From contig DAICZL010000161.1 of assembly GCA_027311165.1 (NCBI GenBank), forward strand, positions 1 through 52,973: DNA of 52,973 nucleotides, written 5' to 3'. Shown here one piece after another: positions 23,301 through 46,270 of the stretch (within the stretch, counting starts at the first letter, position 1; each line of letters opens with the position of its first letter). The notes under the pieces were generated by a model. That model was not told where the DNA came from, did no database searches, and saw nothing but the letters and a program-made list of their open reading frames with translations. A program made the translations under genes and the position numbers. This DNA comes from a bacterium. GTDB lineage: Bacteria > Pseudomonadota > Alphaproteobacteria > Acetobacterales > Acetobacteraceae.

Positions 23301-23440
23301 GTGACGCCCTACAAGCGACTGAGGTGCAGCAACATTTGCGGGCAATGCGGACAGAGGCCGAGGTGGTGCGCGGTCGGCTGGACGGGGTTGTTCCCGCGCC
23401 AGCGCCACCGCTATCCCTGTCTAGCGGCCCCGCGCCGTAA
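20327..23440 (+). CDS. MobF-family conjugative relaxase with helicase domain
   Basis: The 1037-aa protein has the TrwC/TraI N-terminal relaxase fold: LSGVDLVFSPDKSVTLAAEF (~103-122), the metal-binding His cluster DPHAHIHNFLMN (~205-216), and Tyr pairs near the N-terminus (YYTGRDG ~48) that would attack the nic site. The C-terminal half is a RecD-like helicase with Walker A GAAGVGKTT (~509) and Walker B VLVIDEVSQ (~583) and a late motif HALTIDAAQG. It nicks oriT and unwinds plasmid DNA in conjugation. No type IV secretion or coupling genes are seen nearby, so within this window only mobilisation is supported. Confidence 0.93.
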   Translation: MMNFRKIAAASAGRLLLRYFTENTPEPIHPAPVDAAGRTLEEGGRLTAYYTGRDGRASWRPDMPAILAKAIGIDPSQMPRDAEMSRLFEARRADNGEAWSAHPRKLSGVDLVFSPDKSVTLAAEFAPTPAESALIWNAIDRAADRAMRYVAHEVGWARRGKGGEDGADPGAVGWVTFRHHTARPTLQVQDGAEGQTYLFDAPVAGDPHAHIHNFLMNIVATADGRIGSLDLRALTDNRIKEFGAYFQAVLADELRRLGIQVGYNENEQAVVIESVPGDIGRAFSKRDRQILHKARTFAERQGLSWDDLSAERKLDIVEEASAEGRLGKMKADERRLWREQAEALGWKHESVIGETTHAKRTDEERFEQAYHFAARHLAEEFRTAAVIDHEKLGLHAARGLIGAGIAGGPADIKRVVELIEERGIRIGGEHVSLVVGVFDDRLRVSNTRQIRIEERLQSLAHETARDRSGALGSSDLRRAMDRSQVKFSADQKAAIFALGQGGRLTLLTGAAGVGKTTILEPVVTTWKSDTRFDPKGREVIGTALAWRQADALRDAGIDRAYALSPLLAMIERGDITVSRNTVLVIDEVSQVGPRPLLKLLELQARTGMTIKMLGDREQAQAIEAGDSIELLRRALPPEALPVLLSTVRQATQRGREIAALFREGKAEDALTMKRADGHARLLGGDRDQVVGQIADLYIERRDILAASGSKRGITISAPTNEDAADISQAIRARLKVRGEIATAETLHKAIDQNGREYDLALATGDRVRLYRRTWGHAGGREQQVGNNGDVVEVLSQSDRGLRVRTAKGEVAEIDWRRLADKETGRILLGLGHALTIDAAQGLTSDEHINALPRGTSGVTGFTSYVAESRARGATWTLISEGALHEAERHRQAVGDATPITQDTLWARAAADMSEKPYKALGIDLLNAARHDRERAIDAFIGAHHAMEAATLADPGWGRKAAQRTRALAVNDQLSRHLPSLDTAIQENGKLLRDALQATEVQQHLRAMRTEAEVVRGRLDGVVPAPAPPLSLSSGPAP

Positions 23441-28984: not shown

Positions 28985-29027
28985 TCGGTTCGCCTACGTC
29001 ATCGAATGATACCAACGAGTTGCGGTT

Positions 29028-29151
29028 ACCGAAAGATATCACCGAAACGGCGCCGTTTGCCGCGAACATTGGCATCCAGACTTCCACTCCCCATCGACCG
29101 TTCCGGGGCTTTCGAAACCGGGGCGATTTCCGAAAGATATGTCCGAAAGTC
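29028..29151. repeat. Repeat cluster resembling recombinase subsites
   Basis: Two imperfect copies, ACCGAAAGATATCACCGAAA (29028-29047) and TCCGAAAGATATGTCCGAAA (29130-29149), each containing two direct CCGAAA units 13 bp apart. They lie beside boundary repeat copy 3, in ~300 bp without a convincing gene. Paired subsites like these are seen in resolvase target regions, but no recombinase gene is adjacent. Confidence 0.45.
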
Positions 29152-29281
29152 CAGCGCGGCTGCAGGTGCCGAACTGACGCAAGTTTGACGATCTCGCCGA
29201 ACTGCACATGCCCGCTTCGTTTAGGAGGCGCCCGACACCGGACCGTCGGCAAACCACCCATGCTGGTCCTTACGAGCGCGA

Positions 29282-29881
29282 TCATCCTGCGGTTCGAGTC
29301 TTTGGGAGGGCGAGAACCACCGGTATACCGCTAGGCTTTATCGGCGAGATAGCGTGGCGGCGACGAAAGCCGCCGAATGCCACCTCACCTTCCCGCAGCA
29401 GGGCGGGCGCAAACGATCTCGCGCAGGCGTAGGGCACGACCTGTATCTCAAAGACATCGTCCCTGGCCTGCTTGAGCGCCTCGGAAAAGGCCCAGGCGCG
29501 GGCGCCCATTTCGTGGATATAGAAGGGACCGGCCAGGCCCTCACCGGAGCACAATAAGACTTCGCCGGCCCAGAGACGGCAGCTGTCCTCACGGGTCGGC
29601 GGATCGCCCTCGTCGATCTGCCACTCGACCTCGCGACCGAGTGCCAGGGCTGGATCTCCGGGCCACTTCACATCGGGTTCGGGCGGCAAGCCGCCTGTCG
29701 TGAGAAGCTCCGTCACCTCGTCCCCGGTTGCTGCCCTCAGACGCACCTCGCGGTCCACGAGCTCGGCCGTCAGTGGAAAGGGATACGCATCCGTCAGGAA
29801 TGCTCCATTGCCCGGCACCGCGGCAGCACTGATCTGGTCCGCCGTATCCTTTGGAATCCGAAGCCCTGGATCGATCCACAT
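29282..29881 (-). CDS. Conserved-looking hypothetical soluble protein
   Basis: 199 aa without signal peptide or membrane segment: begins MWIDPGLRIPKDTADQI and contains acidic, Trp-rich stretches (EVEWQIDEGDPPTREDSCRLW) and a mixed alpha/beta pattern. ATG 29881 is chosen because GAGGGTG precedes it; the longer upstream frame overlaps the divergent lipoprotein gene. I do not recognise a family. It faces away from the lipoprotein at 29963. Confidence 0.6.
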   Translation of the reverse strand: MWIDPGLRIPKDTADQISAAAVPGNGAFLTDAYPFPLTAELVDREVRLRAATGDEVTELLTTGGLPPEPDVKWPGDPALALGREVEWQIDEGDPPTREDSCRLWAGEVLLCSGEGLAGPFYIHEMGARAWAFSEALKQARDDVFEIQVVPYACARSFAPALLREGEVAFGGFRRRHAISPIKPSGIPVVLALPKTRTAG

Positions 29882-29962
29882 CTTCACACCCTCGCGCGAA
29901 GCGCCGTTCGCACGCCTCGCGCTAATTATCCGAGCAGGCAACATAGGAAGAGGATTTTGCGA

Positions 29963-30520
29963 ATGGCTCTTACGCCTGTCATCCGCTCCATAGTCGCGGC
30001 TTTGCTGCTGGGCGGATGCACCGCGACTGGCGTTACGGTCGAAGATCCGCACCCGGATATTCAACAGGAAGTTTGGAATATCGCCAGCCGCTACGACACC
30101 TCGTTCAAGGCAGGCGGTATGGCAGGCGTCACCCAGGAAATAGAAAGTTGCTATCAGTCGGCGACCGTGCCGGTGACGAAAATATGGGCGCTTCGAGACT
30201 GCCTGATCCTCGACTACACCGGCTTCTACACAGACATGAAAGTCGGGCGACGCCTCAATCACATATCGCTGCCGTATTTCGCCCCGGAGACTTTCGCGGC
30301 GCGCACCACTCGATATGCGAAAATGGACGGCTTCACGTCACCGGCGCAGTTATCCAACTACTTCAAAGATACCGAGGATCTCGTTCAGATCGACCTCGCC
30401 CAACTCAACCAGGGTCCTATCGTGGTCAATCGCCCATTGCAGCGGCCAGCAGTGAAGCCTGATTTTCCGACCTGTTGGAACGTCGGGCTCGTCGGTTGCT
30501 ACAAAAACACGAAACCTTGA
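29963..30520 (+). CDS. Hypothetical lipoprotein
   Basis: 185 aa with signal and lipobox (IVAALLLGGC, Cys ~17). The mature protein has a paired-Cys layout (ESCYQSA, LRDCLILDY, and CWNVGLVGCY at the end) suggesting disulfides. No named family recognised. ATG 29963 starts the signal; the TTG two codons earlier is less likely. It is followed at 67 bp by another small exported protein in the same direction. Confidence 0.7.
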   Translation: MALTPVIRSIVAALLLGGCTATGVTVEDPHPDIQQEVWNIASRYDTSFKAGGMAGVTQEIESCYQSATVPVTKIWALRDCLILDYTGFYTDMKVGRRLNHISLPYFAPETFAARTTRYAKMDGFTSPAQLSNYFKDTEDLVQIDLAQLNQGPIVVNRPLQRPAVKPDFPTCWNVGLVGCYKNTKP

Positions 30521-30587
30521 TTCGCAACGCCCGCCGGCAGGGTGAGGCCGCCGCCGAACCGGCGGTACTCCCAAGAGGACCAGTCCG

Positions 30588-30875
30588 ATGCGATTTCCAG
30601 TCTTATTGATAGCCGCAGCAGCCGTGCTTGTGCCGGCACTCGCATCCGCACAAACGGTGGTGACTGACCCACAGCTGCAAGCGACGACGCAGCAAATCCT
30701 GACCGTCGAGCAGCAGCAACTCGCTGTCGCGAAACAGCAGCTCGTCGTCCTGGACACCATCGAGGCACTGCTGCAAGCACAGGCGACGCGCACGACGGCG
30801 ACGCAAGCCTTGGCGTATGGCAACAGCATTGCCCAGGCCCAGGAAGCAGAGCGCACACAACAAGCCGCGAAGTAA
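30588..30875 (+). CDS. Small secreted Gln-rich coiled-coil protein
   Basis: 95 aa: signal peptide (LLIAAAAVLVPALASAQ) and a mature helical part very rich in Gln and Ala (VEQQQLAVAKQQLVVLDTIE) consistent with a coiled coil. It could be related to small periplasmic proteins near conjugation loci, but no type IV secretion gene is present. Function unknown. Confidence 0.65.
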   Translation: MRFPVLLIAAAAVLVPALASAQTVVTDPQLQATTQQILTVEQQQLAVAKQQLVVLDTIEALLQAQATRTTATQALAYGNSIAQAQEAERTQQAAK

Positions 30876-30932
30876 GACCACTCCATCTAACCGCCGGCGA
30901 TAAGTCAATCGTTGTCTCGCCGGCGGCCTCCG

Positions 30933-31563
30933 TCATCGCGTGCGGAACGCATCCCACGCGAGCGGCGCGGTATTTTCAGACCCATCTATCGGCGAGCCGA
31001 GAACTGGATTCGATTTGGACATTAGCGAGACTGCGCTGGTCCACTCCCACGCCGCTGTGCCAGCTCCGAAGAGGCGGGCCTCGCCCTGCCAGTTCGAACC
31101 CGCCGCCATCGCAATCCGATAGAAGCCGCTCGGCAGCAGCAACCGTGGTGATCACGCCATTCGACAGATAAACGGTCGCCACCCATTTTCCGGTCGCCCA
31201 ATCACGCACGCTGACGATCCAATGGCGGTACGGTGTGTCGGAGGCTATGCGGACAGTCAGTGGGGCATTCCAGTCGGACCCAGGGCGCCGATCGACGAGG
31301 GTGAAGCCATCTTTTGGAAACGCGACGGCATCCGCCGCCGCAGCTGGTGCCGGTTGGGCTCGCGGCGGCGCAGTAGGCTTGCCGGTAGTCGGCGTTGGAG
31401 GGGTGAGCCGCCAATCCTGGTAGGTAGCGCCAGCGAGCAACACGGCGACGATCGCCACAGGCGCCGCCCAGCGCACCCAGGTAAAGCGGCGAACACGCAG
31501 CGTGATCACTGGGCGGGGATCCGCATGTTGCTCCCGATACCAATCCCGTTCAGCAAAGCCCAC
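30933..31563 (-). pseudogene. Single-span membrane protein gene broken by a frameshift
   Basis: From ATG 31563 the frame gives an N-terminal basic part, one membrane segment (WAAPVAIVAVLLAGA, ~32-46), a Pro-rich linker and a C-terminal domain (YRHWIVSVRDWATGKWVATVY, NGVITTV). Near 31142 the sequence GTTGCTGCTGCC shifts frame; the other frame continues the same domain as LLPSGFYRIAMAAGSNWQGE and then ARLFG to a stop at 30933. The joined ~208-aa protein would match a known pattern of P-x-G-x-Y and W-x-GE-x-LFG repeats in small plasmid and phage proteins. Either a mutation, an assembly error or slippage on the CTG repeat explains it. Confidence 0.65.
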
Positions 31564-31596
31564 GCTGATTCCCCATCGGTGAAGTAGGCCGAACGA

Positions 31597-32283
31597 CTAC
31601 GGATATCCGTAGTGCGCCGCGCTCCAAATCCAGGCGCCATCCTTCCAAACGTAGCGGCCTTGCAGCCACGGTCGCTCGTCGACCCGACGGAGTTCCGTAT
31701 CAGGGGGCACCCAGACATATTTAGCCCCCCGCAGCTCCCAGCGGCCCGGAAGAAGGGCCTTGGTCACGGGCGGCGGCGTAGGAGGCAGAGCAGCGACAGC
31801 CACGGGGGCAACCGGCGGGATCTGAACCGGCGCGGCGATCGGGGGTGGGAACGTGACCGCGACGGCCGGCGTGCTGAGTGCTGCGATCGCCGCATCGACG
31901 TTGCGCGCAGCGCCCGCGGGATCGCGGACGGCGAGTGCCTGCCGCGCTGCGCGCGTGTCGGCCAGGGCAGGTGGCGCGGCCGCCCCGGGCTGCGCGTTGT
32001 CGTCCATAAGCCGCGTTTCCGCCCTCTCCAACGCCTCCTGCGCCTCTCCCGTCCGCCCCCCTGCAATCGAAAACCGTGCAGCCCGGAGAAAGGTGATCGG
32101 GGGAGCGCTCGGCCCGACTGCCGGGGTCGGTAACGCAGGCGCTACAGCGTTTCGCGTATCCGACGGCGCGATATTGCTCGCGTGGATGTCGAGCGGAACC
32201 GCAAGGGCGGGGCTTGCAATCAGGGAAAGGAATAAGCCGAGGCGGAGACGTGTACGACTTGGTTGCGACAGCGCGGCGATCAT
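31597..32283 (-). CDS. Exported protein with C-terminal YXWGXW-like repeats
   Basis: 228 aa with signal peptide (LRLGLFLSLIASPALA), an Ala-rich helical region (RAARFSIAGGRTGEAQEALE, ARNVDAAIAALS) and a Pro-rich linker. The C-terminus has two tandem W/Y/G elements (GRWELRGAKYVWVPPDTELR and WLQGRYVWKDGAWIW) as in YXWGXW/WxxGxW-repeat proteins. The start MIAALS at 32283 has ACGAGGG upstream; an ATG six codons earlier is less likely. It lies just left of the Tn ends. Function unknown. Confidence 0.75.
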   Translation of the reverse strand: MIAALSQPSRTRLRLGLFLSLIASPALAVPLDIHASNIAPSDTRNAVAPALPTPAVGPSAPPITFLRAARFSIAGGRTGEAQEALERAETRLMDDNAQPGAAAPPALADTRAARQALAVRDPAGAARNVDAAIAALSTPAVAVTFPPPIAAPVQIPPVAPVAVAALPPTPPPVTKALLPGRWELRGAKYVWVPPDTELRRVDERPWLQGRYVWKDGAWIWSAAHYGYP

Positions 32284-32301
32284 GGCTGGCCCTCGTTGCA
32301 T

Positions 32302-32664
32302 TTAGGGATCGGCGGTGTGTTGACGCGGAATGTGGATGCGGCGCTGTCCGAGCTTGCGTTCATGCGCGTGCAGCCACGCAGCCGCGGTCGCACGCGTCTC
32401 GAACGCCTCGGGCGGAATGGTTAAATCGAGCGTGTGACAAACAGCGTGAATCCGCAGGATCTGATCGGCCGACGGCAGGTCGTTTTCCAGCAGCAGCTTC
32501 GCTTCACGCCGCCACTCGAGGGCGATGGCCTTGATTTCGGGAACCCGAACCGAGGGCACACGGACGGAGACCATGACGATCCCGGCCGCGGCCGCGCGTC
32601 GCTGATAGAGTTCATTGTCGACGGACCGCCGCTCCTTGGGGCGTGGCTTCCGGGAAGCCGGCAT
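32302..32664 (-). CDS. Hypothetical protein next to the transposon left end
   Basis: 120 aa, basic N-terminus (PASRKPRPKERRSVD), a beta-strand pair (GIVMVSVRVPSVRVPEIKAI) and helices. Its start lies 33 bp outside the transposon's left terminal repeat. No family is recognised; the strand-helix-helix order resembles ribbon-helix-helix regulators, but this is not secure. Confidence 0.5.
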   Translation of the reverse strand: MPASRKPRPKERRSVDNELYQRRAAAAGIVMVSVRVPSVRVPEIKAIALEWRREAKLLLENDLPSADQILRIHAVCHTLDLTIPPEAFETRATAAAWLHAHERKLGQRRIHIPRQHTADP

Positions 32665-32696
32665 CAGGCCGCCTCCTGTGTCGTCGCCGACGGCGC

Positions 32697-32804
32697 TGTC
32701 GGTTCAACGTTAATTCCCGGACTGGAAGATTGTTACGATTCCCAATGAACGTTAATTTGAGACTGGGTCGGCTCTAGTCCCAAAATAACGTTAATTCTGG
32801 GACT
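32697..32804. repeat. Transposon left end: terminal repeat and transposase-binding sites
   Basis: Terminal TGT repeat (32697-32715) then repeats of the unit CGTTAATTnGRGACT: 32708-32723, 32750-32764, an inverted copy 32776-32790, and 32789-32804. The last two share ACGTTA and form a dyad. The final copy overlaps the tniQ stop (32791). These match the layout of TnsB/TniA binding sites. Confidence 0.75.
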
Positions 32805-33606
32805 GAGATTTGCAGCTCTTCCGTCTCCTCCGTGCATCGGCCGCTCGGCCCAGTTTGCGGTTGACCTCCCAAACACGGAGGAGGTGCCGGGACCAATATG
32901 CTTCGTCGAGCGACTGGGCTCCAGTCGCGGCAAGGACGAAAATCCTACATGGAAGCCCAAGATTGGCCAACGCGGCTCTCTTCGGTCCCGACACCAACTT
33001 CGAGCCAAACATGCTGGTAACAAACCCCGGTAACACAAGAGCGCCGTTGATCACCGATGGTTCCCCCCAGGAGGAAGCCAAAGTTGCCGGAGGCCGATGT
33101 TCTCCGCGAACAACGGCTGCTACCAACTCGGAGCCTCGGTGCGCGTTTTTTACGACAGGGGCGTACCAGGACCATCTCAGTTCCGCATCGAAGTCCTCAT
33201 CGCCCTGCTGGGTGAGAACGCCGCCACAGCGGTCGCAAAGGACACGCCATGCTTCACGCCAGTGTTTCATCCGCACCGCCGCTCCGTGCCGAAGGCTGAA
33301 TTCGGCCAAGCATCGCCGGCATTCGACCTCCTGCCCGTTCCTCCGGACAAGGCCGGCGCTCAGGTGGCCGAGCCAGCGATGAGTGCTTGCGAGGACTTCG
33401 TCCGCCGAAGATCGCAGCATCGAGGCGATCAAGGGAACATCGTCATCCACGAGGGTTTCGTCGATTGCGCGAAGCGAGGCGGGGCTGCAGCCCGCCCAGG
33501 TCAGCAAATGCGGCCGCGAGACCCGGTGCAGCGCGGCGGTTCGGTCGAGCCAGGATGACAACAACTCGCCCGGCTCCTTACTTGCGGCAAGAGGCAGCGC
33601 CGTCAC
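32791..33606 (-). CDS. tniQ: TniQ-family transposition protein
   Basis: 271 aa. N-terminal TniQ domain with KEPGELLSSWLDRTAALHRV (residues ~9-28) and a zinc-binding pattern CRRCLAEF then LCDRCGGVL, with WREAWRVL between. TniQ proteins help select targets in Tn5053, Tn7 (TnsD) and CAST elements. GTG 33606 is the start, overlapping region after the tniB stop by a 2-nt gap; upstream frame lies inside tniB. It is short compared with TnsD, lacking an obvious sequence-specific C-terminal extension. Confidence 0.88.
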   Translation of the reverse strand: MTALPLAASKEPGELLSSWLDRTAALHRVSRPHLLTWAGCSPASLRAIDETLVDDDVPLIASMLRSSADEVLASTHRWLGHLSAGLVRRNGQEVECRRCLAEFSLRHGAAVRMKHWREAWRVLCDRCGGVLTQQGDEDFDAELRWSWYAPVVKNAHRGSELVAAVVRGEHRPPATLASSWGEPSVINGALVLPGFVTSMFGSKLVSGPKRAALANLGLPCRIFVLAATGAQSLDEAYWSRHLLRVWEVNRKLGRAADARRRRKSCKSQSQN

Positions 33607-33607
33607 C

Positions 33608-34483
33608 TCATGCAGCCGCCGCGCGAGGGGCCAGAGGCAAGTCGAGCACCGCGGCGCTGTTAATCCGTTCCGCTCCCGACAGGATCGCCTCTTCCGCGAG
33701 ATCCGCAAGCACCCTGAAGACCCTGGCCGTGACGCCCTGGCTGATTTCGATCAGATGGCGCACCGCCTGGAGATTGAGTTCTGATGGCTGCCGCAATGGC
33801 ATCGAGCGCAGAGCGCTTCCTACCAAACCCTGGAACTCCGTGGACGGCTGCCACGCCTGGAGCGTCAGCGGCTCATATCGGCTGGCCAGCTGTTCATCAC
33901 CAAGGATGGCGTTTTCGGCTTCGCTCGTTCCCGCGCACACCAGCGAGATCTTGAGTTCGCCGGTCAGCGTCCGCAAAAGCGCCATCATCGCATCGCGGTC
34001 CGACGATCGTGCGGCTGTGAAGACATTATGGACCTCGTCGACGATCAGCATCCTGGTGCCGAGGGCCCGAAGGAGGTGGTACACGCGATCTTCGATGACG
34101 CCGGACGCCGCCGTCGAGGCCGTAGGCGCTTTCAGCGCGGAAAGGATCTGCCCGTAAAACCGGCGGATATTGGGTTGTGGTCTGATCACGACCGATAGCA
34201 CAGGCGTGTGTTCGCGGTCATGTTCCGGCTCCCAGGCTGGACAGTTCTGCCGGCAGAACCGTTCCAGCAGCATGGTCTTTCCCATGCCCGACCGCCCAAC
34301 GATCAACAGGCACGGCATCCTGCTCCGCCGGGGAAATTCAAGGAGACGTTCGAGCTTGCGAATGATCACCACGGCCTTCGGATAACTGACCCAGCGCTCC
34401 TCTTGGATGGATCGGATCCGGCTGCTGTCGTCCGCCGAGAGCATGTCGGCGATTTCAGGGAATACGTGCTCAACGCCGGCCAT
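33608..34483 (-). CDS. tniB: TniB, AAA+ ATPase of transposition
   Basis: 291 aa: Walker A GRSGMGKTMLL (~63-73), Walker B MLIVDEVHNVF (~145-155), sensor region SLVCAGTSEAENAI, and C-terminal helical domain. TniB (TnsC-like) couples target complexes to the DDE transposase. Its start overlaps the tniA end by 14 bp, so tniA-tniB-tniQ form a coupled operon. Confidence 0.93.
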   Translation of the reverse strand: MAGVEHVFPEIADMLSADDSSRIRSIQEERWVSYPKAVVIIRKLERLLEFPRRSRMPCLLIVGRSGMGKTMLLERFCRQNCPAWEPEHDREHTPVLSVVIRPQPNIRRFYGQILSALKAPTASTAASGVIEDRVYHLLRALGTRMLIVDEVHNVFTAARSSDRDAMMALLRTLTGELKISLVCAGTSEAENAILGDEQLASRYEPLTLQAWQPSTEFQGLVGSALRSMPLRQPSELNLQAVRHLIEISQGVTARVFRVLADLAEEAILSGAERINSAAVLDLPLAPRAAAA

Positions 34484-36128
34484 GCAGGAACTCCGTTTCG
34501 AAATAGGGGAGGGGGCCGTCGGTGAATGGCTCGGACTCGCCTGTGCCGGTGCCAGGCTGGGCGATCGGGCCAGGAGCCTGCTGGTGATCCTGGGTCACCA
34601 GGTGCTTGCGCCGCTGGCGATTTCTCTTGGCCTGTGCCGTGAGCCTGACCTCGTCATCCTCGATGGCGCGCTGCTCGAGGACCGCATAGCCAATCGATTG
34701 ACTGTCGCGTTCCTTGCGCCCTTGCGCGCGCAGTCGTTTCCGCGCCGAAGTTCGTTCCCATAGCGTCATCGGAGGCAGGCGCAGGTCCCGCCATCGCGCC
34801 TCCACATGAGTGCCGGGAGCGACCTCCACCCATATCCGGCTGATGTCGCGCGGATCGTACCTCACCCCGACCTTCGTCTTCTTGCGGATGCTGAAAGACC
34901 GTAACTCCGGCGATGAGTACTGGAATTTCATGAACTCGATACCGGTTCTTTGTAAATGGCGTTCGCACCGCGGTAGAAAATCCAGCAGGAACCGGACGCG
35001 GTCACCAGGACGCTTCCAGATCGCGTTAGCCGCGTGTTCGTTCCACACTGCCATCGGAGGGCGGCCAAGCGCGGAATGGATACGGTTGTGATATTTCCCG
35101 GCGATCTCCAGCGCGATCCACCGTTCCAACTGACGCAATGTCATGGCCGCCCGGTGCTCCGGGTCGTAGTCGCGCTTGTCCGCGACGGAGCTCCCGGTCG
35201 TGCCTGGCAAAAGATGAAGCGCGCCCATCGTTGTGCCGATGAGTCTCTCGATGTGCCCCCCGAAGTGCGGCGTGCGCGGCGGGCGAAAGTCGACCTTGAT
35301 ACCATGCTCCTCACACCCACGAGCCAGCGCCTTTGAGTGAAATTCAGCCGCGTTATCGAGATACAGCAACTCCGGAAGACCTGAGCATGGCCACGAGAGG
35401 CGAATGTTCCTGTTTTCGAGCCACTCGCCCTTCTCGAATACCGCCTGGGTCAGGCAAAGCCCGACTGACAGGACGCTCGGGTAATCCATGGTCAGATGGA
35501 ATCCCACGACCACCCGGCTGAAAACGTCGATCGCCAGCGTGAGATACGGCCGGCCGACAGGAACGCGTGTCTCCTCGTCAACGACCAACACATCCGCCAG
35601 CGTGTGATCGATTTGAACGATCTGAAGGGGACGAACCACTTCGATCATACCGGAGCGGATGGCGAACTGGTCGCTGGCAGCCGTCGGCCCCTCGCGAAGC
35701 CTAACGGTCCGGCGCTGATCGAGCGCGGCGACATGCCGTTCGACGGTCGCCCGGCTTGGTGGTGTCAGGCCACCTGATCTGCATCGGGCTTCGATCTCGT
35801 CGCAAAGATCGGACATCCGGGGCGCCTCCCGCCTCAGGAACAGGCGGTCGATTGCTTCATTGATGATCTGCCGTTTGGCCAGCGGCGTTCGGAGCGAGCC
35901 ACGCTTTGGACCCCGCCGCTCGGGGAGCAAGGTCGAACGGACCGGCGCATCCCGCCAGGCAGCGATCAAGCGAAACATGGTGCTGGCAGAAATTCCTATC
36001 TGCCGTGCCTCACGGGCAACCACGTCCCGCGTTCTCTGCTCGGCAGGAAGCGCGGCCAAGCGTCGGACCGCCTCCTCGCGGAGCCCCGCCGTAGCCCACT
36101 CACTTGGCGTTTCATCACCAATCGGCAT
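34470..36128 (-). CDS. tniA: TniA, DDE integrase-type transposase
   Basis: 552 aa with N-terminal HTH regions (REARQIGISASTMFRLIAAW, RATVERHVAAL), the RNase H-like core with Asp in VQIDHT (~174), Asp in LYLDNAAEF (~257) and Glu in GHIERLIGT (~293), then the Mu-type beta-barrel C-terminal domain. The D-D-35-E spacing supports an active DDE enzyme. It cuts and joins the TGT/ACA ends of this element. ATG 36128 lies 23 bp from the innermost right-end repeat. Confidence 0.93.
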   Translation of the reverse strand: MPIGDETPSEWATAGLREEAVRRLAALPAEQRTRDVVAREARQIGISASTMFRLIAAWRDAPVRSTLLPERRGPKRGSLRTPLAKRQIINEAIDRLFLRREAPRMSDLCDEIEARCRSGGLTPPSRATVERHVAALDQRRTVRLREGPTAASDQFAIRSGMIEVVRPLQIVQIDHTLADVLVVDEETRVPVGRPYLTLAIDVFSRVVVGFHLTMDYPSVLSVGLCLTQAVFEKGEWLENRNIRLSWPCSGLPELLYLDNAAEFHSKALARGCEEHGIKVDFRPPRTPHFGGHIERLIGTTMGALHLLPGTTGSSVADKRDYDPEHRAAMTLRQLERWIALEIAGKYHNRIHSALGRPPMAVWNEHAANAIWKRPGDRVRFLLDFLPRCERHLQRTGIEFMKFQYSSPELRSFSIRKKTKVGVRYDPRDISRIWVEVAPGTHVEARWRDLRLPPMTLWERTSARKRLRAQGRKERDSQSIGYAVLEQRAIEDDEVRLTAQAKRNRQRRKHLVTQDHQQAPGPIAQPGTGTGESEPFTDGPLPYFETEFLHGRR

Positions 36129-36150
36129 GACTTTCTCTCAGAGGCAAGCC

Positions 36151-36276
36151 AGTCTCAAATTAACGTGCCTGATTCGCCGTCAGTCTCGAAATAACGACTC
36201 TAGTCCCAAATTAACGAATCGCTTAAGTCGTTGATAATACGAATTTGCCCTGAAGGCAATTAACGTTGAACCGACA
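36151..36276. repeat. Transposon right end: terminal repeat and transposase-binding sites
   Basis: Terminal repeat 36258-36276 (19 bp, complement of the left end), then internal units AGTCCCAAATTAACG (36202-36216), AGTCTCGAAATAACG (36182-36196) and AGTCTCAAATTAACG (36151-36165), all in the same orientation relative to the end. The last lies 23 bp upstream of the tniA start. Confidence 0.75.
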
Positions 36277-36465
36277 GTCACCACCAATCGCGCCTTCGCC
36301 GACTGGCGTGAGATCTTCCCCAACGCCGCCTGTGTCGTCTCGATGGTCGACCGGCTGATGCATAACGCCGAGGTGGTCTCTATCGAGGGTGACTCCTATC
36401 GCGCAAAAGAAGCCAAGGAACGCGCCGAACGGAAGGTCAAGCAGCGACGCGCCAGCAAGTCATGA
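36277..36465 (+). pseudogene. istB 3' remnant (IS21-family helper ATPase)
   Basis: In frame from the transposon end: VTTNRAFADWREIFPNAACV then SMVDRLMHNAEVVSIEGDSYR and a basic tail RKVKQRRASKS to a stop at 36463-36465. This matches the C-terminal end of IstB ATPases (TTN..F..W, then DRL.H, then GESYR). The N-terminal ~75 percent is missing and is not found on the other side of the transposon, so the IS21-like element was cut by rearrangement, not simply split. Confidence 0.75.
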
Positions 36466-36734
36466 CCAAGCATAAGCGACGCAAACAATCCCGGCGGTCT
36501 TGCCCGCTCTGTGCCGAACCGCCGCCCAACCCGGGTCTGCCGATCACCATCCCATTCGGCATCCCGACATACTGGTCACCCGAAGCAGCGCTCGCCATCT
36601 TCGAGTTCGTCGACGAAATGCGTGACATCATCCTGGCCGTCTACGGACCCCAAATCCATGAGGCGGCACGACAGCGATGCCAATGGGCGCCGACCGATCG
36701 GGTGATCATCCAGGACGACGAAGTGCCGTTCTGA
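36462..36734 (+). CDS. Small protein overlapping the istB remnant
   Basis: 90 aa; its ATG overlaps the istB stop (ATGA at 36462). Basic N-terminus with CPLCAEPPP (one CxxC), then LPITIPFGIPTYWSPEAALA and acidic C-terminal helix. Proteins of this type follow istB in some IS21-like elements. Whether it is translated now that istB is truncated is unclear. Confidence 0.6.
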   Translation: MTKHKRRKQSRRSCPLCAEPPPNPGLPITIPFGIPTYWSPEAALAIFEFVDEMRDIILAVYGPQIHEAARQRCQWAPTDRVIIQDDEVPF

Positions 36735-36753
36735 TCCGCGATACCGGTTGAAG

Positions 36754-36772
36754 ACGGGGCCCTCGGCCCCGT
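36754..36772 (+). terminator. Weak candidate rho-independent terminator
   Basis: Hairpin ACGGGGCC, loop CTC, GGCCCCGT, followed by TCTCCCC rather than a clean U-run. It lies 20 bp after the stop of the 90-aa gene. Confidence 0.35.
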
Positions 36773-36856
36773 TCTCCCCCTGCGCCGCCAAAATCAGGCC
36801 ACAACGCCCGATAGGACTGCGCCGCACTCGGGCTGCTCCAGGACATCAGCAAATAC

Positions 36857-37924
36857 CTACGGATTCACAGCGGCGCTAACACCTTCATCATCCATTCCCG
36901 CCAGTTCGCGCTCGATCTGTTCGATACTAGGCAGGCTGGTCTGCAACTCGGCGGGCAGCGATTGTGCCAGCTTGTATTCCACGACGCCCATGGGCTGTGA
37001 TTTGTCGCCCAGTGCGTATTCGGCCACCACTTTATTCCTGCTCTTACACAGCAGCAAACCGATGGTCGGATTATCATGCTCGTTCCTGACCTGGCGATCG
37101 ACCGCCGTGAGGTAAAAGCCCAGTTGCCCCAGGTGCTCCGGCTTGAACTTACCGGCCTTCAATTCAACCACGACATAGCAGCGCAGTTTGAGGTGGTAGA
37201 ACAGCAAGTCGATGAAGAACTCCTCACCGCCGACATCCAGCAGAACCTGTCGTCCGACGAAGGCAAAGCCCGCGCCGAGTTCCAGCAGAAATTCGGTCAC
37301 ATGCCTGACCAACGCGTGCTCTATTTCGCGCTCCTGCGCTTCGTCAGTCAGGCCGAGAAAATCGAAACGGTATGGGTCTTTCAGGGATTCGCGTGCCAGG
37401 TCGGAGTGTGGCGCGGGCAGTGTGGTCGGGAAATTGGTGACGGCGATGCCGCTACGCTCCAGCAGGCGGCTTTCGATCTGCATCACCAGCACATTGCGCG
37501 ACCAGTTGTGTTCGATAGCCTGGGCGGCGTACCATCTCCTGGTTTCGGGGCCGGGCAATTTGTCCAGCAGTGCCAACTGATGATACCAGGGCAATTGTGC
37601 AAGCACCCCTTGCACGAATGACTCGTCTGGCCACGCCTCGGCAAACGCGCGCATATATTTCAGGTTGCGCGGCGAGAACCCCTTCATGTCCGGGAAGGCC
37701 GTCCGCAGGTCCGCCGCCAGCCGGTCGATGACCTTGGCGCCCCAGCCCTGTTGGGCTTGTCGGCCGAGGATGTCGCGGCCGATCTGCCAGTAAAGCAGCA
37801 CGAGTTCGCGGTTGACGGCGAGCGCGGCGCGCTGCTGTGCGGCATGGATACGCGCCTTCAGTTCGGCCAGCCAATCGGTATAGCCGGCGGGCGGTGTACT
37901 GAGAGCGGGGGGGACGTCGGTCAC
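36857..37924 (-). CDS. DUF1016/YhcG-family PDDEXK nuclease
   Basis: 355 aa. N-terminal helical domain (AALAVNRELVLLYWQIGRDI, GFSPRNLKYMRAFAEAW, QLPWYHQLALLDKL) and C-terminal PDDEXK-type core (FVGRQVLLDVGGEEFFIDLL, CYVVVELKAGKFKPEHLGQL, NPTIGLLLCKSRNK) with the E-D-ExK set. Family members are putative nucleases, some linked to restriction or RpnA-like transposon-encoded nucleases. It is complete and leftward between the IS21 remnant and the DUF1612 gene. Confidence 0.88.
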   Translation of the reverse strand: MTDVPPALSTPPAGYTDWLAELKARIHAAQQRAALAVNRELVLLYWQIGRDILGRQAQQGWGAKVIDRLAADLRTAFPDMKGFSPRNLKYMRAFAEAWPDESFVQGVLAQLPWYHQLALLDKLPGPETRRWYAAQAIEHNWSRNVLVMQIESRLLERSGIAVTNFPTTLPAPHSDLARESLKDPYRFDFLGLTDEAQEREIEHALVRHVTEFLLELGAGFAFVGRQVLLDVGGEEFFIDLLFYHLKLRCYVVVELKAGKFKPEHLGQLGFYLTAVDRQVRNEHDNPTIGLLLCKSRNKVVAEYALGDKSQPMGVVEYKLAQSLPAELQTSLPSIEQIERELAGMDDEGVSAAVNP

Positions 37925-37983
37925 GCCGCGGTCCCCTCCGGATCGGTGTGCGGTGTCGGGCGTGTTTCGGTCATGAGTTGACG

Positions 37984-39177
37984 TTAGCAGTTCGGTGCTG
38001 CTTCGGCACTGTCTGCCGCTGGCTCCGCTCGGGCGCCCGTCCTGCCTTCGGTGAGTGACCGCAAGGCGATCCGGGACGATCGAACCACGGCGTCGAGATG
38101 GGCCATCGCTTCCTCAAGGGCGGTGTAGTCGAAGGCCTTGCGCTCGATCGGGGTCAGCGGCGGCAAAGGGAGCGGCGGCGCTTCCGGAATGTCGTCGTCG
38201 ATCGCGTGGCGCTGCCGGCCGCGGGCACGGTTGGGATCCGGGCGGTACGGCGGCTGGACCACGTGCTGCAACTGGTCCAGGCCCTGCAGCGCGAACAGCC
38301 GCCGTTTCGCCCGATGCGCGACCTCGATGGCGATCTCCGCTTGCACCAGCGCATCGAGGATGCGGATGGCGTTCTTCACCGCGATGCCGAGGATACGCGC
38401 GAGCGTGGTCGCGGAGAGCACCGGGGCCGCGGCCAGGACGTCCACGGCGCGCGAGTCATGCGAATCCTTGCGGCGGCCGGCGACGTCCCGGCGCGCCTCG
38501 AACCAGGCGCGTTCCAGCGCATAGAGCAGATCGAGGCTTGCGGTCGCCTCGCGTTCGATGGCGGCGAGGAAGGCCGGCAGCCATTCATCCAGGTCCCAGT
38601 TCTGCCCGAACCCAAGTGCGGCGGCGCCGGTCAGCGGGACGGGCAGCCGGAATAGCTGACGCTTGCGCCAAAAGCGGATCATCGCGGACCGCATCGCCGG
38701 ACGGGTTTCCCCCGTCTCGATCCATCTCCGGAGGCCCTGTGCCGCGGCAATCAGCGGCGGCAGCGACGCCGGCTGCAGGGCAAGCATCGCCTCGGCGCGC
38801 TGGACCTCGCCCTCCTGGTCAAAATCCGGCTCGACGATCCACTGGTGCATGGCGAGCGCCGCACGGGCGCGGTCCAGAATGGCGCCACGATCGATGATGC
38901 GGAGATAGGGGTCCATGCGCAGCCGTAGGCCTTCGAGGGTCGCCGCGAGATGCCAGGGGTCAATGAGCTGGCCGTCGACCGCGGCCTGCTGGCGCACCGA
39001 CTCGAGGCGGGCGCGGTAGAGAAAGGCCTGGGCCAGCGGATGGCTGGCGAGGGCCTGATCAAGCCGGGCGATCGCCGCGGCAGCGCCGGCGAGCGCCGCC
39101 GCGAGGATCATCGGGTCGGGCGGCTCCGTCCGCAACAGTCGGTCCAGCGGCGCGTCGGTAAAGCCGTCGGCGGCCAT
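37984..39177 (-). CDS. RHE_PE00001-type/DUF1612 helix-turn-helix plasmid protein
   Basis: 397 aa, all-helical and Ala/Arg-rich. Characteristic stretches are ASHPLAQAFLYRARLES, RLRMDPYLRIIDRGAILDRA and the C-terminal winged HTH with APVLSATTLARILGIAVKNA and IRILDALVQAEIAIEV. This family is found on rhizobial and acetobacterial plasmids near integrases and mobilisation genes; function is unknown but the HTH suggests DNA binding. Confidence 0.85.
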   Translation of the reverse strand: MAADGFTDAPLDRLLRTEPPDPMILAAALAGAAAAIARLDQALASHPLAQAFLYRARLESVRQQAAVDGQLIDPWHLAATLEGLRLRMDPYLRIIDRGAILDRARAALAMHQWIVEPDFDQEGEVQRAEAMLALQPASLPPLIAAAQGLRRWIETGETRPAMRSAMIRFWRKRQLFRLPVPLTGAAALGFGQNWDLDEWLPAFLAAIEREATASLDLLYALERAWFEARRDVAGRRKDSHDSRAVDVLAAAPVLSATTLARILGIAVKNAIRILDALVQAEIAIEVAHRAKRRLFALQGLDQLQHVVQPPYRPDPNRARGRQRHAIDDDIPEAPPLPLPPLTPIERKAFDYTALEEAMAHLDAVVRSSRIALRSLTEGRTGARAEPAADSAEAAPNC

Positions 39178-39437
39178 CAGAACGGGCGTCCGGCGGGCGG
39201 CGGATCAGCCGATCGAAATTCGGACTTTGCCTCCAGCGGCAGCACTCCAGATATCAATGGGATACGCGGTCATTTACGGATATGAGGCCGATCCGTCAAA
39301 TAATGGTTTTATTTTCCCGGAGGCCCCTGCCCCGCCGTCCCGACCAAACCTATTACCGATAATTTGAGTTGTCGATGGTAGGGTTGTTGGGGTAGAAAAC
39401 CGCATTCAAGCCTTCTTGGACAGCCGGAGAAAGCGTT

Positions 39438-40586
39438 TTGGACAGCCAGATCGACGCCAGCGACGACCCGCCGGACGCCGTGCCTGAGCTCCTGCCGCCG
39501 TCGCGCGCGCTCGTGCCGGCGCCCGTCGGCGCGGCACCAGAGCATGTGCGCGCCTGGTTCGACAATGCCGTCGAGGCCAGCGAGCCGGTCGTCGACGGAA
39601 CCTTGGCCAGCGAGCGCGACGCCGCCGACACCTACCGCCGCATGGCCAAGGCAGAAAACACCCGCCGCGCCTATCGCGCCGCTGTCCGCGCCTGGTGCGC
39701 CTGGTGCGCCCGGCACGACCTCCCTCCCCTGCCGGCCTCCGGCGAGGATGTCGCCGCCTTCCTCGCCGGCGAACGCGGCCGCAAACTCTCGCCGGAAACC
39801 CTGAAACTGCGCCGGGCCGCAATCCGCTATTTGCACCGCGCCGCCGGCTGCCCGGTGCCAACCGACGATGTCTGCGTCTCGGAGACCATGGCCGGCATTT
39901 CTCGCGAGGCCGCCAGGAAGGGCGTCGTGCCGCGCAAGAAAGTGGCGGCAACGGCGACCATTCTGCGCCGGCTGCTGGCGCCCATACCTGGCGACGTACG
40001 GGGGCTGCGCGACCGAGCCATCCTCCTGGTTGGCTTCGCCGGCGCGCTGCGGCGCTCGGAGCTGGCCGCCATCCGCTTCGAGCATCTGGAGAAGACCGAC
40101 CGCGGCATCCGGCTCACCCTGCCGCAGACCAAGGGCGAGCAGACCGACGCGGTGACGGTCCCGCTGCCCTACGGCGATACCGAACTCTGCCCCGTGCATG
40201 CGCTTGAGGCGTGGCAGCAGGCGGCCGGGCTGAGCGAGGGGGCGGTCTTTCGGCGGATCTGGCTGCCGCCGCGACCGAAGCCGTCGGCCACGGGCGAACC
40301 CCCTTCCCTGCCCGCCACGCCGGCCCCGGCGCGGATCGGCACGCACGCGATCAGCCCGCAGACCGTGGCCCAAATCGTCCAGGCGCGCGCCATGGCCGCC
40401 GGTTTTGGCCGGCGCGATCTCGGCGGCCACAGCCTCAAACGCGGCGCGCTCACCACGGGCATGGATCGCGGTGTCCATCCAGCCAAGCTGAAGCGGCTTG
40501 GCCGGCACAAGAGTTTTGACGTACTTGGGGAATACCTCGAGTTCGGCGACTTGTTCGAAGGGCATCCGCTTACAGGCGTGTTGTAA
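39438..40586 (+). CDS. Tyrosine site-specific recombinase
   Basis: 382 aa from TTG 39438, preceded by GGAGA. N-terminal SAM-like DNA-binding domain (ENTRRAYRAAVRAWCAWCAR) and catalytic domain with Arg in GFAGALRRSELAAI, the GHSLKRGALTTGM box (H-x-x-x-R), and the Tyr in SFDVLGEYLEFGD. The usual second-box Arg is followed here as KRG, seen in this plasmid subfamily. The ORF's N-terminal ~50 residues before VDGTLASERDAADTYR are poorly supported, so the exact start is unsure. A decayed copy follows. Confidence 0.88.
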   Translation: MDSQIDASDDPPDAVPELLPPSRALVPAPVGAAPEHVRAWFDNAVEASEPVVDGTLASERDAADTYRRMAKAENTRRAYRAAVRAWCAWCARHDLPPLPASGEDVAAFLAGERGRKLSPETLKLRRAAIRYLHRAAGCPVPTDDVCVSETMAGISREAARKGVVPRKKVAATATILRRLLAPIPGDVRGLRDRAILLVGFAGALRRSELAAIRFEHLEKTDRGIRLTLPQTKGEQTDAVTVPLPYGDTELCPVHALEAWQQAAGLSEGAVFRRIWLPPRPKPSATGEPPSLPATPAPARIGTHAISPQTVAQIVQARAMAAGFGRRDLGGHSLKRGALTTGMDRGVHPAKLKRLGRHKSFDVLGEYLEFGDLFEGHPLTGVL

Positions 40587-40861
40587 CGACTACGATGTTC
40601 GGCGGCGCCTCGTTGAGACGACACCGGGATCGTTGACGGCGATCCGATCTCGCAAGGAGCGAGTCGCATGATCGAAGGTAAAAGGCCGCGCCACGCCGGA
40701 TCCCACTTGGTGAACTTGGCGGGGTCGGCCATTTGGTGAGCCGGGAGCGCCCGATAGCCGCGAAATCACTCCCCTCCCTGCCGTGCGTCGCCCGCGCCGC
40801 ATGGCGGTCGAGGTAACCGCCCTTCTCGCCCCGCAGCAACTTTTCGGAGGGCAAGTGGAAA

Positions 40862-41597
40862 CGCATCTCGCACGTGCTCGCCGGCATCCGTCGCCAGGCC
40901 GCGCGGCAAGGTCAGACTCAGCACAAGAAGGTCGCGGCGACCGCCGGCATCCTCCGGCAGATCCTGGCGCCCATCCCCAACGACCTGCGCGGGCTACGCG
41001 ATCACGCGCTGATTCTCGTCGGCTTCGCCGGCGCGCTACGCCGTTCGGACCTGGCGCGATCCGTGTCGAGCAGCTGGGGCAGACCGAGCGCGGGCTGCGC
41101 CTCACCTTGCACCAGACCAAAGGATCGCAGACGGATGCGGTGATCGTTCCCCTGCCCTATGGCCACACTGAATTGTGCCCGGTGCGCGCCCTGACGGCCT
41201 GGCTGGAGGCGGCCAGTATTGAGTCCGGGCCGGTGTTCCGGCGCATCTGGTTGCCAAAAAAGGCCCGGCCAGGTGGAAGCCGGCGAGGTTCCGCCAGCCA
41301 AGCTGGTGGAACCCGACCGGAGAGGAGTCCCCTCCCCTGCCCCGGATCGGCAGTCAGCCGATCACGCCTTGAACCGTCGCCGCGATCGTCAAATCGCCCG
41401 CCGCCGAGGCGGGGTTCAAAGCGCGGGATATTGGCGGGCACAGCCTGAAGCGCGGCGCGCTCACCACGGGCGTGCACCGCGGCGAGCATCCGGCCAGGCT
41501 CAGACATCTGGGGCGGCACAAGAGCTTCGACGTGCTCGGGGAGTACCTGGAGTTGGGCGATCTGTTCAAGCGGCACCCGGTTAACGGCGTGTTGTGA
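40862..41597 (+). pseudogene. Decayed second tyrosine recombinase
   Basis: The region reads as a 5'-truncated copy of the preceding recombinase: SHVLAGIRRQAARQGQTQHK, KKVAATAGILRQILAPIPND, GFAGALRRSDLA, frameshift near 41060, QLGQTERGLRLTLHQTKGSQ and IWLPKKARPG, a second frameshift after ~41290, then ARDIGGHSLKRGALTTGVHR and SFDVLGEYLELGDLFKRHPV to the stop at 41597. Closely related but not identical to the intact gene, so it is an older paralogue, not a recent duplication. Confidence 0.8.
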
Positions 41598-41785
41598 GCA
41601 TGTGCCATTTGCCCAGCGGAACATGCGTCCTCGGGTGAGCCCCCCTCTCCTGCCCCATCTCTGGATTCAGCCGATTCCGCCATTGGCGGTCGCCGAGAAC
41701 CGTCCATCTGGGCGAAGGCCGGGACTCGGCGGCGTCGGTCCGCCATTGAGGATGCTAGCGGCAGCGAAAGGACCTCCTCGGGAAG

Positions 41786-41803
41786 AGTTTCACGCGTGAA
41801 ACT
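41786..41803. promoter_or_regulatory. parS-like centromere site 1
   Basis: Perfect 18-bp palindrome AGTTTCACGCGTGAAACT. It matches the ParB-box TGTTTCACGTGAAACA except for CG inserted at the centre, and differs from the classical repABC parS. Two identical copies occur at 41834 and 46009. Confidence 0.75.
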
Positions 41804-41833
41804 TAGGCACGGTGGATGGTCCCCGCAGGCGCA

Positions 41834-41851
41834 AGTTTCACGCGTGAAACT
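41834..41851. promoter_or_regulatory. parS-like centromere site 2
   Basis: Second exact copy of the 18-bp palindrome, 48 bp from site 1 and ~1.8 kb upstream of repA. Confidence 0.75.
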
Positions 41852-42137
41852 CGGTATACCTTTGCGGCTTTCGCGCAAGAGTCGGACGCGCGGCCTCGCT
41901 TCGCGGCTGTTCGGGTTGCTCGCTACGCGACTGCCCTGCGTCCCTCGTGCGACTCGGCGGTCGTCACGCGATCTGATCAAAATTGCCCGGAGCGCCTCCG
42001 CTGAAAGCCAACCACCCGAATTCGGCACTTCAAGAGAGGCGTCGTAAACGCCACCACTGCGCGCGTGACGCCATACAAGGAGCGCCTGAAATCAGACCAG
42101 CCCCATCCCGCGTTAACGCAGCGATTGAGTCTGATCA
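41852..42137. other. Region after parS sites
   Basis: No gene is supported in these ~285 bp; with the parS pair this forms a non-coding stretch of about 540 bp after the decayed recombinase. Confidence 0.4.
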
Positions 42138-43623: not shown

Positions 43624-43674
43624 TGCCCGCTTCTAATGGCTTAATGGCTACAGTTAAATCTTCTTGAGAGTTTT

Positions 43675-44880
43675 ATGGCTGAACCCGGTGCAGAAGTCGC
43701 TCAGATTGCACAGCTCGCCACATCCGGTGAACGGATGGTCGAGCGGCTGCGTAAGCACGCCTTCCTGCCAGATCGCAGGAAGTCGTTGAACTTGAGGTTC
43801 GGGATTATGGAGGCATCCCAACTGCTGGGGTGTTCTCCGAATCGAATCCGAGCCGCCGAAGAAGATGGTCGCCTTTCCCCTCCTCCGGAGGGGAGTACAC
43901 GTCGGCGCCTTGGTTACGGGATCGAAGATATCCTCCATATGCGGGAGGTCTTGGCCGCGTCCCCTCGGAGGGGGCCGAAAGACCATGCGGCAATCATCGC
44001 GGTCCAGAACTTCAAAGGCGGAGTCGGGAAATCCACGATCACCACACACCTAGCGCACTACCTGGCGATCCAGGGCTATCGGGTGCTTGTGGTTGATTGC
44101 GATAGCCAAGCCACGACTACGACCCTGTTCGGCTTCAATCCCCATTTCCAAATTCCACAAGAGGCGACGCTCTACCCCTACCTCGCATTGGAAGCGACGC
44201 AGGATGATTTGGGGTATGCGATCCACCGCACACCCTGGCCAAATGTCGATCTTATTCCCAGTTGCCTCCAACTTTTCGATGTCGAGTACGAGCTGGCAGC
44301 AGCCGGTGCGACGGGCGAGAGTGTGATTTCCGCACGATTTAGGAAGCTTCGAGAGGGTCTCCGGAATGCGGCGGAGAACTACGACGTAGTTATCCTGGAT
44401 CCACCTCCCGCTCTCGGCACGATCAGTTTGGCGGTCATGCAAGCCGCCACTTCGGTGCTCGTTCCCCTCGCGGCGACGACGCCGGATTTTTGCTCGACGG
44501 TTCAGTTTCTCTCAATGATGAGTCAGGTGTTGGCTCAGCTGCGCGAAGTTGGATTCGAGACAAACTACGATTTTGTACGCATCATTTGCTCGCGTCATGA
44601 CGTAAATGACCCCTCTCAAAGCATGGTCTTGAAGGTCATGGAGGAAGCGTTTGGGGCGACCCTGCTTCCGAACGCCGTCCTTGATTCAGCCGAGATCAGT
44701 CACGCCGCCTTGCGGATGATGACGGTCTATGAGTTGGAGAAGCCCATCGGCACTGCGCGCACCCACAAGCGGTGCCGGGGGAATCTGGATGAGGTCATGG
44801 CGCAGGTGGAGCATCTCATCCGCCGCTCCTGGCACCGCGCCCAGCCCGCTTCACTGGAGGAGCGCCTCAATGTCGCGTAG
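43675..44880 (+). CDS. repA: RepA, ParA-type partition ATPase
   Basis: 401 aa. N-terminal winged-helix region (LRFGIMEASQLLGCSPNRIR, RRRLGYGIEDILHMREVL) followed by the deviant Walker A KGGVGKST (~115-122), Walker A' VVDCDSQATTTTLFG and DVVILDPPPALG. This is the type Ia ParA/RepA of repABC plasmids, which segregates plasmid copies with RepB and represses the operon. The repB start lies 11 nt before its stop. Confidence 0.93.
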   Translation: MAEPGAEVAQIAQLATSGERMVERLRKHAFLPDRRKSLNLRFGIMEASQLLGCSPNRIRAAEEDGRLSPPPEGSTRRRLGYGIEDILHMREVLAASPRRGPKDHAAIIAVQNFKGGVGKSTITTHLAHYLAIQGYRVLVVDCDSQATTTTLFGFNPHFQIPQEATLYPYLALEATQDDLGYAIHRTPWPNVDLIPSCLQLFDVEYELAAAGATGESVISARFRKLREGLRNAAENYDVVILDPPPALGTISLAVMQAATSVLVPLAATTPDFCSTVQFLSMMSQVLAQLREVGFETNYDFVRIICSRHDVNDPSQSMVLKVMEEAFGATLLPNAVLDSAEISHAALRMMTVYELEKPIGTARTHKRCRGNLDEVMAQVEHLIRRSWHRAQPASLEERLNVA

Positions 44881-45901
44881 TCCTCAGAAGACTTACCTTG
44901 ATCGTCTCCTCACACCCGAGGGTGCCCCCGTGCAAGAAGAGCGCGAGAACGATCAGCGCGCGTCTTCACCGCGTGGGTCGCTTTTGCTAACCCGAGCGAA
45001 CACGCTTGAGCGCATTGGATCAGGCGAGCTGAAGCAGGTCGCCCAGGTTCGGCTTGACCCGAAACGGTGCCGGATTTGGCCCGGTAACGGGCGAAACTAT
45101 GCGGCGCTCAATTACGACCGGTGCAAAGATCTCATCGATTCGATGATCGCCGAGGGGGGGCAGAAGGTGCCTGCCCTGGTGCGCAAGCTGAAGAACGACC
45201 CCGATCATGACTACGAAGTGATCTATGGGTCGCGGCGGCATTGGGCGACATCTTGGCTGCGGGCCAACAATTATCCGGAGTTCGTGTTCCTGGCTGAAGT
45301 CCGGGACCTCGATGACGAAGCCGCCTTTCGATTGGCGGATTTGGAAAACCGAGCCCGGCAAGACATCACGGAGTTCGAGCGAGCCAAGAACTACGCGGCG
45401 GCTTTGCCAGTGCACTATGACGGCAAGCAGACCAAGATGGCTGAGCGGCTCAATATTTCCAAGAGCTTGCTGTCGAAGATGATCGCGTTCGCTAACGTCA
45501 GCGATAAGATCATGGTGGCGTTTGCCGTGCCTGGCGAGCTGAGTCTGAGGCAGGGCTATTCGCTCGCACAGGCAGTTTCGACGCCTGGTGCGGAGGCACG
45601 CGCATCGCGTGCGGCTGGAGTCATTGTCAAAGAGAATGCGGCACACGTTGAAGCAGGGAAGGGGGCTCTGCCGACGCCCTCAGTCCTCGCGAGGCTTTTG
45701 TCGGCGGCGAGCGGTGAGACAGCAGCGAAGGTTGATCCGCGGCAGGTTCTCTATCAAGGGAAGCCTGTAGTGACCGTGCTCGATGAAAATCGAAAGGGCG
45801 TGCGGGTCCAGGTTCATTCCGGAACAGGCGCCGACCTGGAGGCTATTGTTGAGAGCTTGAGAGAGGCGTTGCAAGGCTCGAGCTTAGGGGCGGTCAAGTG
45901 A
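44870..45901 (+). CDS. repB: RepB, ParB-type partition protein
   Basis: 343 aa. ParB/Srx N-terminal region (YEVIYGSRRHWATSWL) and central HTH (TKMAERLNISKSLLSKMIAF, ~185-204) that should bind parS. The ATG overlaps repA by 11 nt and GGAGGAG is well placed. Three parS-like sites are nearby, one only 108 bp after its stop. The atypical parS suggests its HTH specificity may differ from common RepB proteins. Confidence 0.93.
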   Translation: MSRSPQKTYLDRLLTPEGAPVQEERENDQRASSPRGSLLLTRANTLERIGSGELKQVAQVRLDPKRCRIWPGNGRNYAALNYDRCKDLIDSMIAEGGQKVPALVRKLKNDPDHDYEVIYGSRRHWATSWLRANNYPEFVFLAEVRDLDDEAAFRLADLENRARQDITEFERAKNYAAALPVHYDGKQTKMAERLNISKSLLSKMIAFANVSDKIMVAFAVPGELSLRQGYSLAQAVSTPGAEARASRAAGVIVKENAAHVEAGKGALPTPSVLARLLSAASGETAAKVDPRQVLYQGKPVVTVLDENRKGVRVQVHSGTGADLEAIVESLREALQGSSLGAVK

Positions 45902-46264: not shown

Positions 46265-46270
46265 AACTCC

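Follow-up and report, generated by a model that had tools for sequence, protein, structure and literature searches.

How does a transposon that carries only its own transposition genes move, and what directs it to its targets? The question is raised by a 3580-bp (base pair) intact tniA-tniB-tniQ element at positions 32697-36276 of contig DAICZL010000161.1, which is contig C181 of the metagenome-assembled genome (MAG) G000, a 3.85-Mb assembly in 819 contigs that is 87% complete. The whole contig of 52,973 nucleotides was analysed and is referred to here as the window. The source organism is a member of the Acetobacteraceae. We hold it to be quite probable that the element is an intact and probably autonomous TniABQ transposon of the Tn7-like kind, that it carries no cargo and belongs to a clade in which TnsA, resolvase and cargo are generally lacking, that it transposes replicatively, and that the window copy is best read as one end of an adjacent deletion.

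The element is bounded by exact 19-bp copies of TGTCGGTTCAACGTTAATT with TGT/ACA termini, at 32697-32715 on the forward strand and 36258-36276 on the reverse strand; no further copy occurs in the window even at three mismatches (chance expectation 0). A second motif, CGTTAWTTYGRGACTRR, is present at five sites in the window without mismatch, against 0.02 expected, and the end repeats number four per side when the left variants and the right terminal copy are counted (Table 1). By reference to Tn7-like elements, these arrays are presumed to be binding sites for TniA. The Tn7-like core lies between them in one operon: a DDE transposase with a Mu-type C-terminal domain (TniA; catalytic residues Asp174, Asp258 and Glu294, invariant in relatives), an AAA+ regulator (TniB; Walker A sequence GRSGMGKT) and a TniQ-family protein. 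The three genes leave no room between the ends for a resolvase, TnsA or any other coding gene. The element contains no extra open reading frame that might encode Cas12k, no CRISPR repeat array lies near it, and no Rfam match was found in 29000-42000. The preliminary description, which had reported exact termini, four repeat sites on each side with one left site inverted, transposition genes without resolvase, cargo or guide module, and nothing to explain target choice, is borne out on all of these points; no target selector is evident in the element.

An element of this size could also be a remnant, produced when a larger Tn5053-type transposon lost tniR and its cargo. A resolvase gene does adjoin tniQ in the Tn402/Tn5053 elements (R751) and is present in three loci of the Tn402 branch (L058, L059 and L081). 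We give this explanation almost no credence, given that the nearest copy, on MAG contig JAFKFI010000058.1 (C132 of G077), is also 3580 bp long, has the same ends and three genes at a different location, and is 86.6% identical from end to end. Ratios of nonsynonymous to synonymous substitution rates (dN/dS) between the two copies (0.139 for tniA, 0.117 for tniB and 0.235 for tniQ) point to purifying selection on each of the three genes. The window protein groups, in a tree of TniA, with those of TniABQ-only elements of about 3.6 kb (a 19-row group, support 80/96) from plasmids of Bosea, Paracoccus, Agrobacterium, Sinorhizobium and Aminobacter and from genomes of the window's own family, whereas Tn402 and the three resolvase-bearing loci form a separate branch. 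The absence of resolvase and cargo thus reads as a trait of the clade. The preliminary description had named relatives with tniR or cargo inside the same termini as the finding that would refute it; both the closest copy and the other delineated clade members hold tni genes only, and the window element is therefore not an individual deletion derivative. Two members may be exceptions to the common plan: L071 has a serine-recombinase gene 80 bp upstream of tniA, with ends that could not be set, and L037 (5740-8524) has well-defined ends 2784 bp apart that enclose TniA and TniB without tniQ. Two more relatives, L036 and L101, also have no tniQ downstream of tniB. The search of genome contigs gave two relatives and that of viral contigs none; the lineage is widespread and little studied.

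The mode of transposition can be read from the junctions of these elements. Both ends could be set for 19 elements, with about half of the distant relatives left out as their ends were not settable by script, and none of the 19 has a 5-bp direct target duplication (best match 3 of 5); the window copy is flanked by GGCGC on the left and GTCAC on the right. A likely reason for this absence is intramolecular replicative transposition, an instance of which is preserved in a pair of Sinorhizobium medicae strains. Strain ml20 (NZ_CP140967.1) has a single copy of the relative, and strain ml49 (NZ_CP140895.1) has the same surroundings, but there the copy is followed by a 260-bp spacer in inverted orientation and then by another 3.6-kb copy facing the opposite way, the two copies in ml49 being 99.97% identical. 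CTTGT occurs in opposite orientation at the new junctions (element/ACAAG and element/CTTGT), with a 5-bp overlap in alignment coordinates. The arrangement in ml49 is the product expected of intramolecular replicative transposition with a 5-bp target duplication, in keeping with the replicative transposition predicted for TnsA-less elements (PMC8649781). The ml20 arrangement is the earlier state, because an exchange between two copies in inverted orientation might turn the spacer round but would not delete either of them, and since the new target lay 260 bp from the element's own end, target immunity did not act over that distance. Two other junctions are recorded for their own sake: a Sulfitobacter plasmid (L038, 5828-13323) carries three successive TniABQ units with exactly 5 bp (AACAT) between the second and third, and a Methylocystis element (L086, 5815-9643) is flanked by a 31-bp direct repeat, GTCGGCATCCGGAATGTCGTCGTTCTTGGCC, in place of a 5-bp one.

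The window copy itself joins two gene remnants (Table 1), a feature that, like its missing target duplication, is absent from the preliminary description. The coupling-protein gene whose tail remains on its left is intact in L119 of G077, where it stands in the same order and encodes 782 residues with Pfam TrwB_AAD_bind and TraG-D_C matches. The rest of this gene has no match in G000, the same query finding 67-72% homologues in G077, G058 and G248; the front part of istB was likewise not found in G000, and the left flank has no match among the plasmids searched. The G077 copy likewise interrupts a gene, transposase-like and with a Pfam DUF4158 match in its product, and the sequence on its other side is unrelated. 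That such elements copy themselves and flip nearby DNA, as the strain pair carrying the relative shows, would account for their place at broken gene junctions, and we infer that the window copy marks one end of an adjacent deletion that it made on a repABC plasmid.

Several observations weigh against this interpretation. In an assembly so incomplete and fragmented, the absent parts of both genes may have been left unassembled, and assembly or recombination may have produced the junction. The inversion was seen in a relative at about 45% TniA identity, outside the window's own lineage, and the resolvase-bearing L058 and L059 also lack a direct duplication, so that its absence is not specific to resolvase-less elements. 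Taken alone, the window TniQ scores 25.4 bits against Pfam TniQ, just under the cut-off of 27, a family matched by 10 of 11 aligned relatives. The first of these concerns can be framed as an explanation of its own, in which the lack of a target duplication goes back to a chimeric assembly, or to copies that recombined homologously at a later time, and has nothing to do with the element's own transposition. The origin of the contig in a fragmented MAG assembly and the presence of just one copy in G000 speak for it; the same absence in complete plasmids of several genera speaks against it, and we regard it as unlikely, if worth bearing in mind.

Under the replicative interpretation, TniA would pair both ends through the repeat arrays, to which it presumably binds, and would join them to target DNA under the direction of TniB and TniQ. 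With no nuclease for the second strand, the product would be replicative: a cointegrate if two replicons were involved, a deletion or inversion beside the element if the target lay in the same replicon. With no resolvase, these products would be expected to persist until host homologous recombination, presumably RecA-dependent, acted on them.

What TniQ might contribute to target choice is less apparent. The protein has an N-terminal TniQ domain (residues 9-124) and a CxxC...CxxC pair (Cys96, Cys99, Cys124 and Cys127), and it scores 24 bits against the PADLOC model for TniQ of type I-F CRISPR-associated transposons (CASTs). Single-sequence and profile searches against solved structures gave no credible match, and a structure prediction from three sequences was set aside for its mean pLDDT (predicted local distance difference test) of 49. 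No common target was found in the short-TniQ clade to which the window element belongs: the flanking genes vary by copy, from the coupling gene and istB to the DUF4158-domain transposase-like gene and metabolic genes.

The picture is different in a sister clade whose TniQ proteins are longer. Its elements, on plasmids of Methylocystis, Mesorhizobium, Sulfitobacter, Ruegeria, Pseudosulfitobacter, Sinorhizobium and Agrobacterium, adjoin a plasmid tyrosine-recombinase gene, lie upstream of DUF1403-scpB, or both, and a joint query found TniQ adjoining DUF1403 in 18 of the best 60 records. Mesorhizobium AR02 shows the same arrangement without an element in it. In four of the five long-TniQ elements compared, 46-60 bp separate the left end from the CGATAAKG within a conserved inverted repeat (type GTCCGATAATGCAAGATTATCGGAC), and in the fifth the distance is 95 bp; in the Agrobacterium locus L136, which has two tniQ copies, the distance read from the sequence is 48 bp. 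From its form and position, this repeat may be the site of the tyrosine recombinase, in which case the sister clade possibly hunts tyrosine-recombinase sites, a habit comparable to the res-site hunting of Tn5053 elements (PMC11406308).

These findings could mean that the window element, too, has a plasmid recombination site as its specific target and was displaced from it by a later rearrangement. A similar tyrosine-recombinase locus (37984-40586) does lie empty 3 kb beyond the element's right end, and its order of tyrosine recombinase, 397-residue gene and YhcG-like gene is shared with L077 (1614-10000, G057), where a TniABQ element with a serine recombinase sits between the first two. The CGATAAKG repeat, however, occurs in the left 160-bp flank of none of the 10 window-clade elements, and together with the differing flanking genes this makes displacement distinctly unlikely. 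We tentatively suggest instead, at somewhat less than even confidence, that the alphaproteobacterial resolvase-less TniABQ elements are a plasmid group with two lifestyles: the long-TniQ elements would insert beside the core site of a tyrosine recombinase, as the tyrosine counterpart of the res-site hunters that exploit serine resolvases, and the short-TniQ clade would have lost that specificity, behaving like an insertion sequence and reshaping plasmids by replicative deletion and inversion. The 397-residue window gene was also considered as a DUF1403 protein; Pfam finds no family in it, and it is a counterpart of DUF1403 in position only.

The preliminary description had also proposed that the element might be a minimal ancestral or reduced form, and the ancestral part is not supported. 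That it represents a surviving ancestral form from which Tn5053-like or type V-K CAST elements arose might be argued from its gene plan, which is the common core, and from the matches of TniA and TniB to V-K TnsB and TnsC (117.6 and 34 bits). In the TniA tree, however, the branches that carry the CAST proteins are very long (about 4 changes per site) and their placement is weak (support 41/89), so that the tree has no power to place them, and nothing roots the window clade at the base; the closest solved TnsB by sequence is that of type I-F, not V-K. An ancestral position is thus very unlikely.

The surroundings are probably those of a repABC-type plasmid, since the window has repA, repB and repC-type genes at 43645-47708 and a TrwC relaxase at 20162-23437. 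The relaxase lies in a metal-resistance region (5149-28930), together with several heavy-metal P-type ATPases, a cation-efflux gene and an IS110-type transposase. The YhcG/DUF1016-family gene at 36857-37924 (PADLOC PDC-S02, 557 bits) lies in a stretch that G220 shares at 96% identity, a value much higher than elsewhere on the plasmid, which suggests recent transfer. Directly after the tyrosine-recombinase gene, three open stretches at 40714-41594, 64-73% similar, are duplicated and decayed copies.

Table 1. Features of the TniABQ element and its flanks in the window, with related loci on other plasmids.
Feature	Position	Strand	Description
Left flank	32664-32696	-	Conjugative coupling-protein gene cut off by the element; final 10 codons with stop remain
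Left terminal inverted repeat	32697-32719	+	19 bp exact, 23 bp at 96%
Left end-repeat array	32708-32806	mixed, one site inverted	Putative TniA sites
Variant left end-repeat sites	32708-32725, 32789-32806	+, +	
Exact CGTTAWTTYGRGACTRR sites	32750-32766, 32774-32790, 36149-36165, 36180-36196, 36200-36216	+, -, -, -, -	32774-32790 is the inverted left site
tniQ	32791-33606	-	271 residues; GTG start read from sequence, 1 bp past tniB stop codon
tniB	33608-34483	-	291 residues; AAA+ ATPase; Pfam TniB 196 bits
tniA	34470-36128	-	552 residues; DDE transposase
Right end-repeat array	36149-36216	-	Three sites; fourth inside terminal repeat
Right terminal inverted repeat	36254-36276	-	19 bp exact, 23 bp at 96%
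Right flank	36277-36464	+	3' end of an istB gene (IS21 type), with homology to the intact gene as far as the element boundary
Imperfect inverted repeat, outside element	39273-39299		Between tyrosine recombinase gene 39438-40586 (+) and 397-residue gene 37984-39177 (-); empty here, corresponding position in L077 occupied by a TniABQ element
Sister-clade loci on plasmids	L086, L088, L038, L134, L135, L136		
Empty site	L133 3339-3507		

As a minimal TniABQ unit found in nature, the element lends itself to asking what part TniQ by itself plays in the choice of target, and this question is basic to CRISPR-guided transposons as well. The pair of S. medicae strains provides direct comparative evidence for replicative transposition within one replicon, and elements of this kind emerge as agents of plasmid rearrangement, not passengers only. 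The position of the sister clade beside plasmid recombinase loci presents a testable second kind of recombination-site hunting. A literature search of incomplete coverage found no published account of the strain-pair replicative inversion or of the sister-clade site preference, and both appear to be new.

Among known systems, Tn5053 and Tn402 have the same tniA-tniB-tniQ order, TGT/ACA ends and repeat arrays, and TnsA-less replicative chemistry is expected of them as of the window element, whose TniA is 40% identical to that of Tn402 from R751. They differ from it in having tniR and res as well as cargo, in the branch of their TniA, and in a longer TniQ (405 residues in Tn402). Their insertion at the res sites of serine resolvases is also not seen here, where the flanks are the tails of a coupling gene and of istB. 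Prototypic Tn7 has the TnsA endonuclease, unlike this three-gene element. As for the 5-bp target duplication of Tn7-like elements, the window copy has none, and the relative in S. medicae has one with its two copies in opposite orientation. Type V-K CASTs such as ShCAST, for which cointegrates have been reported (PMC11406308), share TnsB, TnsC and TniQ without TnsA or resolvase, and ShTnsC is matched by the window TniB in sequence comparison; they add Cas12k, a CRISPR array and a guide RNA, none of which was found in the window element. Clade-3 Tn7-like elements also have no tnsA, and a resolvase is not universal among them (PMC8649781); some TnsA-less elements without one may depend on RecA or on a resolvase acting in trans (PMC8649781). 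In that survey (PMC8649781) 96% of elements carry cargo, in contrast to none in the window clade wherever ends could be set. Elements that lack cargo and have a single TniQ have been described before, and the window element is likened by description to one of these, Tn5469 of the cyanobacterium Fremyella diplosiphon, for which a lack of target specificity has been suggested (PMC11406308). Given the cargo-free, single-TniQ Tn5469 and the resolvase-less, TnsA-less elements described in these two studies, the window element belongs to a known group, that of the cargo-free TniQ elements.

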